Origin: Ignavibacteriota bacterium
GTDB taxonomy: Bacteria > Bacteroidota > Ignavibacteria > UBA10030
NCBI GenBank assembly: GCA_003170475.1
Contig: PMZI01000026.1
Location: 189,173 to 253,172 of the forward strand
Reading direction: 5' to 3'
DNA length: 64,000 bases
Positions 15,802 to 22,232 of the stretch are shown one piece after another (position 1 is the first letter of the stretch; each line of letters starts with the position of its first letter). Below the pieces are notes generated by a model that worked only from the letters and a program-made list of their open reading frames with translations, had not been told where the DNA came from and ran no database searches. Made by a program: the position numbers and the translations under genes.

Positions 15802-17052
15802 ATGGACAAACAAAGACAATTCCAAAATGAGATCCGGCTTCTCAGCCAGGCACTCGACATGTCGGCTGACCTTGTGTGCATCTCGGATGCTGAAGGCACC
15901 ATTGTCTCTGTTAACAGAGCATTCCTCGAAAGGTTCGGATATGCCTCGGCAGAACTACTCGGGAAGCGGATGCAATCGTTTGACCTGTTCATTCTTCAGG
16001 TCGGAGAGAAGTTGATTGCTCCTGAAGAGACGGTGGCGGCGGGTTGGAGGGGAGAAACCTCGGCCAGGAGAAAAGATGGTTCTGAATTCCGCGTTCATCT
16101 AGCGATGATGCCCGTGTCCGACGGCGCTGGACAAACTCTTGGACTCATCTGCTTTGCGCGCAGCGCGATGCGGCATCAGGATGCGCTCAAAGAGATCCGC
16201 TCACTGGCAACCGATATCGAGCAAAGCGTCCTCGTCAGAACTGCAGAGGTCGTTACCCAGAAAGACGAACTTGCGCGCATCAATCAGCATCTGGGAGACC
16301 TTGTTCGACAGCTGGATGAAGCGAAGCGCAGAGCTGAACAGGCAAACACGATCAAGGGGCAGTTTCTCGCCCATGTCAGCCACGAAATGCGCACGCCCCT
16401 CAATTCCGTCATTGGATTTGCCAATTTGCTGTCCAAGAACAAGGAAGCAAACCTCAGCGAACACGATCTCTTTTATCTGAACAGAATCACCGGCAATGCC
16501 ACTCACCTCCTGAACGTCATCGGTCAGATGCTCGACCTCTCTGTCATCGAGTCCGGGAAACTCATCTTGAACATTTCGGAGGTGTCGCTCGCCGAACTCA
16601 TCCGGGAAACGATTGCCGATCTGCGCGGGCACTCCCGTGCTGAGTCTGTGTCCATGATCGCCGATATTCCCAAAGGTTCTCAGGCTGTCGAAACGGACCG
16701 GCAGAAGCTTAAGCAGGTGTTGATCAATCTTTTGGGAAACGCGTTGAAATTCACCGAGCGGGGCGGAATCATCGTGCGGGTGATTGTTGATGTCCTTCGT
16801 CGACCGATTCGGATCGAGGTCAGCGATACCGGAGTGGGGGTTGCGAAAGAGCGGCTGGAAGCTATATTTGAACCATTTGAGCGTGTCCAGCCGGCGGGAA
16901 ACTCGGAATCCGAAGGAACCGGTCTCGGTCTTACGATCTCCCGGTCGCTTTGCTCGCTGATGGGGTACGAAATAAGTGTGGAAAGCGATATAGGGAAGGG
17001 TTCAACGTTTACCGTCCACCTCACGAAGACTGTTACTGCTGAACATCACTAG
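15802..17052 (+). CDS. PAS-domain sensor histidine kinase
   Basis: 416 residues from ATG 15802; a TTG at 15778 overlapping the upstream stop is the alternative. An N-terminal PAS domain (residues 10-125, DMSADLVCISDAEGTIVSVN) is followed by a coiled-coil linker, the H-box HVSHEMRTPLNSVIGFANLL, and HATPase_c boxes NLLGNALKFTERGG, VSDTGVG and GTGLGLTISRSLCSLMGY. No transmembrane helix, so it senses a cytoplasmic cue. It is transcribed with the receiver-kinase hybrid upstream and the two may pass phosphate between them. Confidence 0.9.
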   Translation: MDKQRQFQNEIRLLSQALDMSADLVCISDAEGTIVSVNRAFLERFGYASAELLGKRMQSFDLFILQVGEKLIAPEETVAAGWRGETSARRKDGSEFRVHLAMMPVSDGAGQTLGLICFARSAMRHQDALKEIRSLATDIEQSVLVRTAEVVTQKDELARINQHLGDLVRQLDEAKRRAEQANTIKGQFLAHVSHEMRTPLNSVIGFANLLSKNKEANLSEHDLFYLNRITGNATHLLNVIGQMLDLSVIESGKLILNISEVSLAELIRETIADLRGHSRAESVSMIADIPKGSQAVETDRQKLKQVLINLLGNALKFTERGGIIVRVIVDVLRRPIRIEVSDTGVGVAKERLEAIFEPFERVQPAGNSESEGTGLGLTISRSLCSLMGYEISVESDIGKGSTFTVHLTKTVTAEHH

Positions 17053-17078
17053 GAATTCAGAGATTTTTCCTTACCGGT

Positions 17079-17107
17079 CTCCGTTGCGGAGTTTCTCCGC
17101 AACGGAG
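17079..17107. terminator. Perfect hairpin between convergent genes
   Basis: CTCCGTTGCGGAG (17079-17091) and CTCCGCAACGGAG (17095-17107) are exact reverse complements with a three-base loop. It lies between the stop codons of the convergent kinase and FKBP genes. Neither side has a clean U-run, so it may act as a transcript-end stem for both genes rather than as a classical intrinsic terminator. Confidence 0.5.
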
Positions 17108-17122
17108 CGGCGACAGTCTCTT

Positions 17123-17815
17123 TTACTTCTTGATATCAATCAACTCGACTTCGAAAATCAGCGTGGCATTCGGACCGATATCCCCTCCGGCGCCGTTCTC
17201 ACCGTAACCCAGGTTGGAAGGAACAAAAAGTTGCCACTTGGATCCCACCTTCATCTTCTGTAGTGCTTCCGTCCATCCTGCAATGACCTGGTTACAGGGG
17301 AAAGTTGCAGGCTGATTGCGCTTGTAAGAACTGTCAAATTCCTTGCCGTTGATCAATGTCCCGCGGTACTGAGTGACCACAGTGTCGGTTGCTTTTGGTG
17401 TGGGGCCCGTGCCTTCTTTCAGAATCTTGTACTGCAGTCCACTGGGCAACGTAACAACGCCGGGTTTCTTCTTGTTCTCGGCGAGGAAAGTGTCCCCTTC
17501 CTTCTTGTTCTTTTCTCCGGCCTTCTTCTGCGTTTCGGTTGCTTTGGCCATCATTTCCTTTTGCCATGCTGCCATTGTCACTTGCATCACGCTATCCGAA
17601 ATTGCCGGTTTTGCGTCACTCAAGCCGTCTTTGACGCCGCGCATGAGAAGATCGACGTCAACCTGGATCGATTGGCGCTTCATGTTCCGGCCGATGTCCA
17701 GGCCGATGCTGTAGCTGACTTTTCCCTTCATGGTTTGAAGGCCTTCTTTTTGCTGAGCGAAAATGGCCGTCGGAAGGAGAAGAAGTACCACGAGTGTAGT
17801 GATAGATGATTTCAA
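17123..17815 (-). CDS. FKBP-type peptidyl-prolyl cis-trans isomerase (FkpA/Mip-like)
   Basis: 230 residues if translation starts at TTG 17815. I chose this rare start because AAAGGA sits upstream at normal spacing and because it yields a clean signal peptide (SSITTLVVLLLLPTAIFAQ); ATGs further up would give an odd polar extension. Residues 25-115 are the FKBP N-terminal dimer domain (KVSYSIGLDIGRNMKRQ), then the PPIase domain (LPSGLQYKILKEGTGPTP, GTLINGKEFDSSYKR, VPSNLGYGENGAGGDIGPN, LIFEVELIDIKK). It is a periplasmic folding helper. It is divergent from trpB2 and ends against the two histidine kinases. Confidence 0.88.
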   Translation of the reverse strand: MKSSITTLVVLLLLPTAIFAQQKEGLQTMKGKVSYSIGLDIGRNMKRQSIQVDVDLLMRGVKDGLSDAKPAISDSVMQVTMAAWQKEMMAKATETQKKAGEKNKKEGDTFLAENKKKPGVVTLPSGLQYKILKEGTGPTPKATDTVVTQYRGTLINGKEFDSSYKRNQPATFPCNQVIAGWTEALQKMKVGSKWQLFVPSNLGYGENGAGGDIGPNATLIFEVELIDIKK

Positions 17816-17979
17816 CGAAGAATCCTTTCTCTGGAAGTGAAATGATGAGATAGCGACTGATGACAATGTCTGCATCAAGGTACGATTTTTTCCCGAAAAC
17901 TGAAACAGATGGTGAATTTCCTGGGAAACACCTTGCCATCGGCGTTGACTCTCACGGTCCGCAGACATCTTGTTCAGGC

Positions 17980-18008
17980 TTGACAACGATGCCGCAAATT
18001 GCTATACT
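17980..18008 (+). promoter_or_regulatory. Sigma-70 promoter of the Trp leader / trpB2 unit
   Basis: TTGACA (17980-17985) and TATACT (18003-18008) with a 17-base spacer, matching the -35 fully and the -10 at five of six. The expected transcript start is near 18015, only a few bases before the leader peptide ATG at 18018. Confidence 0.8.
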
Positions 18009-18017
18009 ATCGGTAGA

Positions 18018-18098
18018 ATGAATCCGGACAGATCATATCTCAATCAGCAGTGGGCTTGGCGGTGGCCTTGGCGTCAGTTCGCGTTTCGGATACCGTAG
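18018..18098 (+). CDS. trpL: Trp-rich leader peptide (attenuator)
   Basis: A 26-codon frame reading [20 protein letters not shown] then FAFRIP and TAG. Four of seven consecutive codons (18051-18071) are TGG, the signature of a ribosome-sensing Trp attenuator. No Shine-Dalgarno is seen, and the predicted transcript start leaves almost no 5' leader, so translation may begin in a leaderless way. The stop at 18096-18098 places a terminating ribosome over the antiterminator strand at 18078-18095. It is too short to be found by ordinary gene calling. Confidence 0.85.
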
Positions 18099-18138
18099 CC
18101 TAGTCTTCGATTGTCTTTTCAAACGGTGGAAACGCGAA
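18078..18138 (+). promoter_or_regulatory. Antiterminator pairing of the Trp attenuator
   Basis: TTCGCGTTTC (18078-18087) plus ACCG (18092-18095) can pair with CGGT (18124-18127) plus GAAACGCGAA (18129-18138). The second strand overlaps the 5' arm of the terminator stem, so the two structures exclude each other. A ribosome stalled on the Trp codons leaves this pairing free to form. Confidence 0.75.
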
Positions 18139-18163
18139 ATGGAGCGTTCCACCGTTTCTTTTT
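18121..18163 (+). terminator. Intrinsic terminator of the Trp attenuator
   Basis: AAACGGTGGAAACGC (18121-18135) pairs with GCGTTCCACCGTTT (18144-18157) with a single bulge and is followed by CTTTTT. It lies 80 bases before the trpB2 start and would end transcription when charged tRNA-Trp is plentiful. Confidence 0.85.
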
Positions 18164-18243
18164 GTACCCTTCCCATTGTTCGGCGGAACCTCCTGTCATC
18201 GTTTCCTAAAATTCATTCACTCTTCATTGATGGAGGTTCTACG

Positions 18244-19554
18244 ATGCAACGCAAAATCACACTCGAAGAGCACGAGATCCCGACGGCGTACTACAATATT
18301 CTCGCCGACCTACCCAAACCGCTCGATCCTCCCCTGCATCCGGGAACGAAACAGCCTATCGGTCCTCAGGATCTTGCCGCCATTTTTCCCATGGAGTTGA
18401 TCAAGCAAGAGGTCAGCACAGAACGATTCATCGAAATCCCGGACGAGGTCCGGAACGCCTATGCCATGTTTCGGCCGACTCCGCTGTTTCGGGCGATCGA
18501 ACTGGAGCGGGCACTCGATACTCCAGCCCAAATATATTACAAATACGAAGGGGTAAGTCCCGCCGGCAGCCACAAGCTCAATACTGCGCTCCCGCAGGCT
18601 TTCTACAACAAGCAGGCTGGTATCAAGCGACTTGCGACTGAGACAGGAGCAGGACAGTGGGGGAGTTCGCTGAGCTATGCCTGCAATTTTTTTGGTCTTG
18701 CGTGCAAGGTCTACATGGTGCGTGTCAGCTACGACCAGAAGCCGTATCGGCGATCGATGATCCGAACGTGGGGGGGAGAGGTTGTAGCAAGTCCCAGTAC
18801 CGACACAGCATCCGGACGGGCGGTTCTGCAACGCGACAGGAACTCCACGGGAAGCCTGGGTATCGCCATCAGCGAAGCGGTTGAAGATGCGGCGGGAAGA
18901 GAAGACACGAACTACTCGCTCGGAAGCGTTCTGAACCACGTGCTTCTGCATCAGACCATCATCGGTCTGGAGGCGAAACAGCAACTCGCGAAAGCGGGAG
19001 TTTACCCTGATGTTGTGATCGGTTGTGTCGGAGGGGGATCAAATTTCGGAGGCATCGCACTTCCGTTCATCAAAGACAAGATCGATGGAAAACCGATCCG
19101 TGCGATTGCTGTCGAGCCGGCGTCCTGTCCTTCATTGACCAAAGGCGAATTCCGCTATGACTTCGGCGACCTTGCAGGCCTGACTCCACTTCTTCCCATG
19201 TACACTCTCGGCCATGATTTCGTTCCGCCATCGATTCATGCGGGTGGATTGCGCTATCATGGAATGGCGCCGATCATCAGTCGCTTGTATTTGGATCGAT
19301 TGATTGAAGCGCTGGCATACGAGCAGGAAGAGGTGTTTGAGGCGGCAGTTCTCTTTGCACGGACAGAAGGCATTATCCCTGCTCCGGAATCGGCTCATGC
19401 GATCAAAGCCGCACTTCAGGAAGCTCAGCAGGCAAAGGTCGAAGGAAAGAAGAAGGTGATCCTTTTCAACTTGAGCGGACACGGACACTTTGACATGAGC
19501 GCCTACGATGCGTTTTTCTCCGGAGCTCTCAGCGGGTCAAAGATGGTGGCTTGA
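18244..19554 (+). CDS. trpB: Tryptophan synthase beta chain, TrpB2 type
   Basis: 436 residues from ATG 18244 with GGAGG ten bases upstream; the upstream in-frame ATG at 18139 lies inside the attenuator stem and is rejected. The fold type II PLP enzyme shows the lysine site [11 protein letters not shown] (Lys111), [12 protein letters not shown] and the phosphate loop [11 protein letters not shown]. The long N-terminal extension and FRPTPLFRA place it in the TrpB2 branch, which is often free of TrpA. TrpB2 joins serine and indole to tryptophan. No other trp gene is near, and the Trp attenuator in front shows that it serves tryptophan supply. Confidence 0.93.
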
Positions 19555-19618: not shown

Positions 19619-19707
19619 ATCTTTAAGTTGCAAGAGGATCGTTGAACGAGTACCTTCTTCAGGAACCCTCCCGAAACAGCCCACCGTGGTCACAAGGAGA
19701 AACCTTC

Positions 19708-20862
19708 ATGAACCGAATGATCCGAATCCTCTGCTTCCTCATCCTCGGAGGTCTCATGGCGACCGATGCGATTGCACAGGGGAGTTCTTTCAACGGTTTG
19801 CATATGAGTTTGGGGAATCTCTCGCTACTTTCGAAAGCCAAGACTCGATCGATTTCTGCTGAGAACTTCAGAGGGGAAAGAGGGAAAGGGGGGATGGCGA
19901 CGAGTGGCACAGGCGAAAAAGCCGGCAGGGAACTGGGGCAGGGGTGGAAATTATCCCCCTCCGTCAAAATAGAAAAGAAGACGATCTTCACGATGGCCGA
20001 AATTGATGGGCCGGGTGCCATCCAACATATCTGGATGGCGCCTCTGGGGACCTGGCGTCAAATCATTATGCGGGTCTATTGGGATGACGAAAAGGAACCA
20101 TCGGTGGAAGTGCCGGTGGGAGATTTCTTTGGAAATGGCTGGGGGTCATTTGCCCAGATCTCTTCGCTCCCGGTTGCAGTGAACCCGGCAGGTGCGTTCA
20201 ACTGCTACTGGGAAATGCCATTCAGAAAGTCGTGCAAGTTCACAATGGAGAACATCGGCGAAAGCGACGTGACGCTGTATTATCAAGTCGCCTACACGCT
20301 CACAGACGTTCCTTCAGACATCGGGTATTTTCATGCTCAGTTTCGGCGCGTCAATCCGCTTCCTTTCAAATCCGTGTATACCATCCTCGATGGTGTGAAA
20401 GGATGGGGCCACTATGTAGGGACCTATGTCGCGTGGGGAATGAACAATGGAGGTTGGTGGGGAGAAGGCGAGATCAAGTTCTTCCTTGACGGAGACGACA
20501 AGTTTCCGACGATCTGTGGGACCGGCACTGAAGACTATTTCTGCGGATCATACGGTTTTGAAAATCCTGTCACCCACCAATATCAGGAATTTGCTTCGCC
20601 TTATGCAGGGTTGGCGCAAGTGATTCGACCTGATGGAGTCTATCGTTCACAAGAACGGGTTGGCCTTTATCGGTGGCACGTCATGGATCCTGTCAGATTC
20701 GAGAGAGATTTGAAGGTGACGATCCAGGCACTGGGCTGGCGATCAGAGGGGCGATATCTCCCACTTCAGGATGACATAGCTTCGGTAGCGTACTGGTACC
20801 AAACTGAACCGCATGCAACATTTCCGAAACTTCCCGACAGAGACTATCTCGAAATTCAATAG
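19708..20862 (+). CDS. GH172 (DUF2961) family protein, copy 1
   Basis: 384 residues from ATG 19708, preceded by AAGGAGA. A signal peptide (MIRILCFLILGGLMATDAIAQ) is followed by a single DUF2961/GH172 double jelly-roll domain: GPGAIQHIWMAP, VPVGDFFGNGWG, CYWEMPF, YYQVAYTL, FLDGDDKFPTICGTGTEDYF. The GTGTEDYF segment holds a Glu conserved in the family. Characterised GH172 enzymes act on fructofuranose or arabinofuranose linkages, so an exported furanosidase is plausible, but the substrate is unknown. The next gene is a full-length tandem copy. Confidence 0.85.
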   Translation: MNRMIRILCFLILGGLMATDAIAQGSSFNGLHMSLGNLSLLSKAKTRSISAENFRGERGKGGMATSGTGEKAGRELGQGWKLSPSVKIEKKTIFTMAEIDGPGAIQHIWMAPLGTWRQIIMRVYWDDEKEPSVEVPVGDFFGNGWGSFAQISSLPVAVNPAGAFNCYWEMPFRKSCKFTMENIGESDVTLYYQVAYTLTDVPSDIGYFHAQFRRVNPLPFKSVYTILDGVKGWGHYVGTYVAWGMNNGGWWGEGEIKFFLDGDDKFPTICGTGTEDYFCGSYGFENPVTHQYQEFASPYAGLAQVIRPDGVYRSQERVGLYRWHVMDPVRFERDLKVTIQALGWRSEGRYLPLQDDIASVAYWYQTEPHATFPKLPDRDYLEIQ

Positions 20863-21077
20863 AAGGAATCGCCGAGGTTTGTATGGATCTCTCTTGATTC
20901 CTTCATGATTCATCGGATGAAACATGGATGTGTGGGTGTGGATCATGACACCCTGGGTCGATCTTGTTGGACAGTTGAGTGCGTCTTTTGCGACCGGGTT
21001 GCAAGTGTACCATTGAACGAGTACCTTCGATCTGCATCCTTCCTGAAACAGTCCACCATGGTTACGAGGAGGAACAC

Positions 21078-22232
21078 ATGAACCGTATGATTCGATTTCT
21101 CTGCTTCCTCATCATAGGAGGTTTTATGGCGACCGAGGCATTCGCTCAAGGGAGCTCTTTCAATGGTTTGCATATGGGACTGGGCAATCTCTCAAGGCTC
21201 TCGAAAGCCAAGACCCGATCGATCTCCGCGGAGAACTACACAGGGGAGCAGGGGAAAGCGGGGATGGCGACGACCGGCACGGGGGAAAAAGCCGGCAGGG
21301 AACTGGGTCAGGGGTGGAAGATATCCCCCTCCGTCAAGATAGAAAAAAAGACGGTCTTCACGATGGCTGAAGTCGAAGGGCCGGGCGCCATCCAGCATAT
21401 CTGGATGACTCCGACGGGAAATTGGCGCTACACTATCATGCGCATTTATTGGGATGGAGAGAAAGATCCGTCTGTGGAAGTGCCTGTGGGTGACTTCTTC
21501 GCCAATGGTTGGGGAACGTTTGCCCCGATTTCCTCGCTCCCGGTTGCTGTGAACCCGGGAAGCGCTTTCAACTGCTATTGGGAAATGCCATTCAGAAAGT
21601 CGTGCAAGATCACGATGGAGAACATCGGCGAAAGCGACATGACGCTGTACTATCAAGTCGACTACACGCTTACAGACGTCCCTGCAGACATTGGGTATTT
21701 TCATGCTCAGTTTCGTCGCGTCAATCCGCTCCCCTTTAAATCCGTGTACACCATCCTCGATGGCGTGAAAGGTTGGGGGCACTACGTCGGCACCTACCTC
21801 GCGTGGGGAGTGAACAATGGAGGCTGGTGGGGAGAAGGGGAGATTAAATTCTTTCTCGATGGTGACGACAAGTTCCCAACAATCTGCGGGACCGGCACCG
21901 AGGACTATTTCTGCGGATCATACGATTTTGAAAATCCGATCACTCATCAGTATCAGGAATTCAACTCGCCTTATACGGGATTGGCACAGGTCATCCGACC
22001 CGACGGACTCTATCGATCGCAGCAGCGGTTTGGTCTCTATCGCTGGCATATCATGGATCCCATCCGATTTGACAAGGATCTGAAAGTGACGATTCAGGCC
22101 TTGGGCTGGCGATCAGAGGGTCGATATCTGCCACTTCAGGATGATATGGCTTCGGTAGCGTACTGGTACCAGATGGAGCCGCATGCTCCATTTCCGAAAC
22201 TTCCCGACAAAGACTATCTCGAAATTCAATAG
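21078..22232 (+). CDS. GH172 (DUF2961) family protein, copy 2
   Basis: 384 residues, the same length as copy 1 and colinear with it without gaps; most differences are scattered single substitutions. It begins after GAGGAGGA with the same signal peptide pattern (MIRFLCFLIIGGFMATEAFAQ) and keeps GTGTEDYF. The duplication also includes about 60 bases upstream (GAACGAGTACCTTC, then a similar Shine-Dalgarno block), so it was a DNA-level tandem copy. Copies differ in the YGFE/YDFE and TSGTGE/TTGTGE neighbourhoods, so modest divergence in specificity is possible. Confidence 0.85.
   Translation: MNRMIRFLCFLIIGGFMATEAFAQGSSFNGLHMGLGNLSRLSKAKTRSISAENYTGEQGKAGMATTGTGEKAGRELGQGWKISPSVKIEKKTVFTMAEVEGPGAIQHIWMTPTGNWRYTIMRIYWDGEKDPSVEVPVGDFFANGWGTFAPISSLPVAVNPGSAFNCYWEMPFRKSCKITMENIGESDMTLYYQVDYTLTDVPADIGYFHAQFRRVNPLPFKSVYTILDGVKGWGHYVGTYLAWGVNNGGWWGEGEIKFFLDGDDKFPTICGTGTEDYFCGSYDFENPITHQYQEFNSPYTGLAQVIRPDGLYRSQQRFGLYRWHIMDPIRFDKDLKVTIQALGWRSEGRYLPLQDDMASVAYWYQMEPHAPFPKLPDKDYLEIQ

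Follow-up and report, generated by a model that had tools for sequence, protein, structure and literature searches.

The gene trpB2 in this stretch of Ignavibacteria DNA (hereafter the window, meaning all 64 kb analyzed) encodes a protein that is nearer to TrpB2 than to TrpB1 (TIGR01415/NF009057; Table 1). The TrpB1 model TIGR00263 gives only 157.5 bits, below its cut-off of 392.45. The best solved relatives (6hul, 4qys, and 6hte) include depositions as tryptophan synthase beta chain 2. The neighbors are an FKBP isomerase gene on the opposite strand and DUF2961 genes, so trpB2 stands alone as a monocistronic gene. The DUF2961 genes downstream (19642-22232) are two tandem, very similar copies, each with an apparent signal peptide.

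A complete tryptophan pathway is encoded elsewhere in the same genome, in dispersed form: trpD-(CBS-domain gene)-trpC-trpF-trpB1 on contig C16, trpE-trpG at another site on C16, and trpA on C13. The CBS-domain gene between trpD and trpC is CorC-like (L155:11971-12837). By its position outside any trp operon, with a trpB1 elsewhere in the genome, it fits the TrpB2o type, a group of genes found outside operons, beside trpB1, whose function is unsettled (PMC1854888).

Table 1. Features of the trpB2 leader region (window coordinates)
Feature	Position	Strand	Remarks
Promoter TTGACA-17-TATACT	17980-18008	+	11/12 consensus matches; TG precedes the second hexamer
Leader ORF, 26 codons	18018-18098	+	ATG 18018; stop TAG 18096-18098
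Trp codon run W-A-W-R-W-P-W	18051-18071	+	Trp codons at 18051, 18057, 18063, 18069
Element 1	18052-18063	+	Overlaps the Trp run
Element 2, antiterminator 5' strand	18078-18095	+	Covariation
Element 3	18123-18136	+	Common to antiterminator and terminator
Element 4, terminator arm	18144-18155	+	Part of hairpin 18121-18157
Intrinsic terminator	18121-18163	+	Hairpin 18121-18157, -21.1 kcal/mol; U-rich tract to 18163
Element 5	18181-18193	+	Potential partners: element 4 (CGGCGGAAC) and the trpB2 Shine-Dalgarno (GGAACCTCC)
Element 6, trpB2 Shine-Dalgarno region (GGAGGTTC)	18232-18239	+	Partner of element 5
trpB2, TrpB-like PLP enzyme, 436 aa	18244-19554	+	TIGR01415, 654.7 bits (cut-off 518.85)

Nine bases separate the promoter from the ATG of a short ORF that ends 145 nt before trpB2. 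Transcription is predicted to start at ~18015, and the ORF is therefore nearly leaderless. Four of seven consecutive codons in it encode tryptophan, a density that chance does not readily explain: among 5000 dinucleotide shuffles of 18010-18243, eight gave an ORF with three Trp in seven codons and not one gave four. Among ORFs of 8-45 codons on both strands of the window, it is the sole case with at least three Trp in seven. A pattern search of the whole genome for further Trp-run ORFs returned 29 matches, against 11 in a reversed control. As for the candidates in frame, those near C16:211430, C62:34420, and C51:102123 sit within larger genes, so no second Trp leader was accepted. Upstream of the trpE of this genome, no Trp-rich ORF and no attenuator were found. 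As the pathway genes of the genome lack such a leader, trpB2 is the sole Trp-attenuated gene found there.

The RNA that follows can adopt two structures that exclude each other, because element 3 pairs either with element 2 (antiterminator; TTCGCGTTTC...ACCG with ACGGTGGAAACGCG) or with element 4 (terminator). An alternative 1:2 pairing is also possible (18052-18063 with 18092-18102, -20.1 kcal/mol). Folded as a whole, the leader (18015-18170) reaches -51.7 kcal/mol and is more stable than its own shuffles (z -2.40). The leader stop codon adjoins element 2, so that a terminating ribosome would mask it. With a ribosome placed at Trp codons 1-3, the folded nascent RNA forms 2:3 (-20 to -22 kcal/mol), and with a ribosome at the stop codon, 3:4 alone forms; a stall at Trp codon 4 hides part of element 2 (all with an assumed footprint of 12 nt past the start of the A-site codon). 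For stalls at Trp codon 1 or 2, the minimum-energy fold of the full-length RNA still has the terminator. Antitermination therefore needs folding during transcription, and we infer a timing step of the kind that operates in known attenuators. Overall, these results bear out the preliminary description, which had listed a leader peptide with four Trp codons in seven, a terminator at 18121-18163, and an antiterminator exclusive of it and correctly ordered relative to the leader stop. The antiterminator pairing that it gave (18078-18095 with 18124-18138) also holds, with the 3' strand adjusted to 18123-18136. No Rfam 15 covariance model, the trp leader included, matched 17000-19500 at up to E=1.

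A search for TrpB2 gave 67 positive genomes out of 245 for the class and 45 out of 98 for the order. When the DNA upstream of trpB2 was read, Trp-run leaders came to light in 38 genomes from eight families within the class (e.g., MSNEMQYRSQQQAWWWRWIKSALPLR, MKQATFHNTSLLNWWWRRVLVSPPA, and MNLKSINIVNNWWWRIISLPS). Within the family, all 14 members with TrpB2 of at least 67% identity and upstream sequence have the leader, one of them (L259) being cut by a contig end. The leader is missing from about half of the class's trpB2 loci, in many of which the gene directly follows another one. The order also contains a second TrpB2-like group, ~50% identical (G082:C36, G223:C70, G252:C248, G269:C352, and G270:C249), with no leader in the two cases read.

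Although the sequences of the RNA elements vary greatly from family to family, their pairing is preserved. The element pair is CGCGTTTC/GAAACGCG in the window, GGTGTCCC/GGGAACACC in L006, L007, and L091, CTGCCGTCC/GGATGGTAG in another family, and CTTCCACTCTTC/GAATAGTGGAAG in L146. The antiterminator covaries in two independent sets of loci. Element cores were excised by their pairing, which favors structure in the following counts. In set A, 79.2% of cells are paired, both sides have changed in 6 of 12 pairs, both-side changes occur in 18 cells (7.0 in shuffles), and covariation is 0.431 versus 0.213 in shuffled data (0/500). The corresponding values for set B are 88.6%, 5 of 11 pairs, 13 cells (4.1 in shuffles), and 0.364 versus 0.231 (0/500). 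When the partner is shifted by 1-3 columns, the signal is lost in both sets and scores are far lower. The same elements came into register when whole set-A leaders were aligned with MAFFT without guidance, and the terminator, with compensated pairs, is part of the consensus predicted from that alignment. Cognate 2:3 pairs also ranked high in an energy-based partner-swap test; this was blurred by related and by GC-rich partners, so we counted pairs in the aligned elements instead. Almost every locus in sets A and B has a terminator hairpin (-15 to -25 kcal/mol) followed by a U-run.

The preliminary description had proposed comparing relatives for covarying stems and Trp runs, with loss of the Trp-rich frame from a retained stem as the outcome that would count against it. 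The comparison leaves its reading standing. The one locus to note is L119, in which the stem elements and TGGTGGTGG are kept and the frame to the start codon is ambiguous (a broken leader, an unusual start, or an assembly error). Five loci (L093, L122, and L133-L135) have Trp leaders and no terminator. The leaders of L122, L133, L134, and L135 end in WWP and are accompanied by small hairpins (GGCCTC...GAGGCC) rather than a U-run terminator; their output may be translational or Rho-dependent. Trp-containing ORFs in family f11 were considered as leaders and rejected, as they are the ends of the upstream gene.

The proximity of promoter and leader start codon recurs in the relatives. In 30 of 35 loci, 33-42 nt separate the start of the best -35 element from the leader start codon, which places the predicted transcription start ~0-6 nt before that codon in most of them. 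At these positions the promoter score reaches 9 in 66% of loci, as against 1% of control positions, and the leaders before trpE (see below) seem to have the same promoter-to-start arrangement. Translation of the leader probably starts at the extreme 5' end of the RNA, without a Shine-Dalgarno sequence. The trpL of Sinorhizobium meliloti is an established case of a leaderless Trp leader (PMC7298713); the present data suggest that a leaderless start can be the norm for leader peptides in a bacterial group of this kind.

It could be argued that the hairpins of the leader act as a constitutive partial terminator, the Trp-rich ORF being incidental to an RNA sequence of GGTGG type that pairs with the terminator arm, given that TGG triplets lie in RNA able to pair and that leader C-termini such as SLP follow RNA elements. 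We regard this as very unlikely. The Trp run is always in one open frame with a fixed relation of start and stop to element 2, the promoter is positioned by reference to the start codon of the leader, and the Trp frame stays while the RNA elements change completely between families.

What sequence and comparison reveal (a promoter, a Trp-run leader ORF, a covarying antiterminator, a terminator exclusive of it, and a conserved order) points instead to a ribosome-mediated tryptophan attenuator controlling transcription of trpB2, a reading to which we assign a probability of about 0.9. The central proposal of the preliminary description, a classical attenuator of this type before a lone trpB2, is thus supported by architecture, order, and conservation. 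With ample charged tRNA-Trp, the ribosome would get to the leader stop at 18096 and cover element 2, hairpin 3:4 would then form, and RNA polymerase would stop at ~18160. When charged tRNA-Trp is short, the ribosome would stall in the Trp run and 2:3 would form, blocking 3:4 and allowing trpB2 to be transcribed.

Tryptophan might in principle be sensed by a TRAP-like or TrpR-like protein rather than by the ribosome. Protein control of trpB2 does exist elsewhere: directly before the gene, two Neomarinimicrobiota loci (L073 and L080) have a TrpR-family gene and also a short Trp-containing ORF. In the window no regulator gene adjoins trpB2, and a conserved Trp-run ORF that ends at element 2 would be superfluous for a sensor of that sort; for this locus we consider a protein sensor extremely unlikely.

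The complementarity may not end at the terminator. In the window, both pairings of element 5 exceed those of shuffles (4:5, p=0.010; 5:6, p=0.007), and its stretch GGAACCTCC (18185-18193) is an eight- to nine-base complement of the trpB2 Shine-Dalgarno region. Complements of 8-10 bases occur also in L082-L085 and L089. Across 25 loci, 4:5 pairing beats shuffles (p<0.05) in 14, where about one is expected, and a significant Shine-Dalgarno complement is found in only six. In L007, L091, L109, L146, L149, L258, and L265, element 5 lies within a second terminator-like hairpin.

These complements, and the existence in other families of leaders without a terminator, would fit a control that is mainly translational, with the leader using element 5 to expose or hide the trpB2 Shine-Dalgarno and with the upstream hairpin in a secondary role. 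The strong terminator with its U-run in nearly all loci of both sets, and the small share of loci with a significant Shine-Dalgarno complement, make this very improbable as the main mode. Within the transcriptional attenuator, element 5 could form a second barrier, either on the trpB2 Shine-Dalgarno or, in relatives, as a second terminator, which would be released once the freed element 4 captures element 5. Capture by arm 4 is attractive because an unrelieved second strong terminator would silence the gene. The second hairpin could also be a duplicate of the first, in which case the 4:5 complementarity could stem from descent. Chains of helices and overlap with ribosome sites have been proposed earlier for attenuators, according to PMC4833913, which cites a 2010 survey. 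That a second barrier obeys the same Trp cue is plausible but much less certain than the attenuator itself. The full relay, in which a class-wide leaderless mini-gene stalls the ribosome, 2:3 forms, arm 4 captures element 5, and the trpB2 Shine-Dalgarno or a second terminator is released, is a tentative proposal that we judge a little less probable than even. If it is true, a single ribosome event opens two successive barriers.

Leaders of this kind are not restricted to lone trpB2 genes. The two family-mates G231 and G216 have the same leader at the front of a co-directional array, trpB2-E-G-D-C-F-B1-A. Other relatives have separate Trp leaders before trpB2 and before trpE (G033, G267, and G013), or Trp- and Tyr-rich leaders before trpE (G136, G109, and G141). 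Most members of the genus represented in the window have another type of trpE, without a leader (e.g., G242, 85% identity). The preliminary description had called an attenuator on an isolated trpB2 unexpected. The gene is indeed monocistronic here; the expectation itself needs revision, in that the leader is class-wide, heads a complete trp operon in G231 and G216, and has sister leaders before trpE in other relatives. The simplest history would be that the leader type served both trp operons and trpB2, and that after dispersal of the pathway trpB2 alone kept it.

The role of stand-alone TrpB2 has long been debated, with proposals including a serine deaminase, an indole scavenger, and a spare synthase (PMC1854888, PMC11917138). 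PMC11917138 also cites results according to which TrpB2 binds indole with high affinity. The preliminary description took the attenuator as strong evidence that TrpB2 serves tryptophan supply. This stands insofar as the leader marks trpB2 as a Trp-starvation gene; regulation alone does not show the reaction, nor does it by itself show whether serine or O-phosphoserine is the reaction partner of indole. TrpB2 may be a starvation-induced second synthase that makes tryptophan, most likely by capturing free indole beside TrpA/TrpB1. Such an enzyme fits the leaders, the T-boxes and TrpR genes found before other trpB2 genes, and the literature, with the enzymatic step itself being conjectural. A Trp sensor occurs on trpB2 in dozens of genomes and on none of the rest of the pathway in the genome studied here, so a role in Trp starvation is directly testable.

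Ribosome-mediated Trp attenuation is a known mechanism. What the present case adds is its extension to Ignavibacteria-type bacteria and a class-wide switch that ties a puzzling second tryptophan synthase to tryptophan supply. In the full-text papers searched, we found no description of an attenuator on a stand-alone trpB2 and no case of Trp attenuation in Ignavibacteria; the survey cited in PMC4833913 may touch related phyla.

The trp attenuators of Proteobacteria and Actinobacteria (E. coli trpL; Corynebacterium, Streptomyces) share with the window leader a Trp-run leader peptide, a U-run terminator, alternating 1:2, 2:3, and 3:4 pairings, and a stop codon beside element 2 (PMC1262725). They control trpE or a trp operon, whereas the window leader controls a stand-alone trpB2, is unrelated in sequence (no Rfam match), has a leaderless start, and has a pairing chain that may run past the terminator. 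In S. meliloti, the leader RNA likewise begins at the trpL ATG, but the system controls trpE(G) in an alphaproteobacterium (PMC7298713). Corynebacterium diphtheriae has a candidate Trp attenuator before trpB2A, which shares the name trpB2 but is paired with trpA in a split trp operon (PMC1262725). In Dehalococcoides, a T-box reported before a trpB-like gene likewise couples it to uncharged tRNA-Trp, but by direct tRNA binding and without a leader peptide (PMC2494555).

Among the trpB2 loci that we read, T-boxes with UGG at the specifier position (identified by eye) precede the gene in L011, L023, and L037, an independent form of Trp control of trpB2, by tRNA binding without a leader peptide. 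A deltaproteobacterial trpB2 (L042:2081-2503) has its own Trp leader (SSWWVWRRPQ), with a Shine-Dalgarno sequence and a GC-rich hairpin, and is probably an independent attenuator. In a KSB1 bacterium (L014:2109-2530), trpB2 is preceded by a His-rich leader ORF (MPTINPTNHVHHNIHAHGWRMVSGIESRMKKS) together with an antiterminator and a terminator, and hisG-like and hisB-like frames come after it; this trpB2 appears to be the first gene of a his operon controlled by His attenuation. The trp leader of Bacillus subtilis, acting with TRAP, combines transcription attenuation with Shine-Dalgarno sequestration on read-through RNA. The window leader would share both features, but the sensor there is a protein, whereas the linkage proposed here would be made by RNA only.
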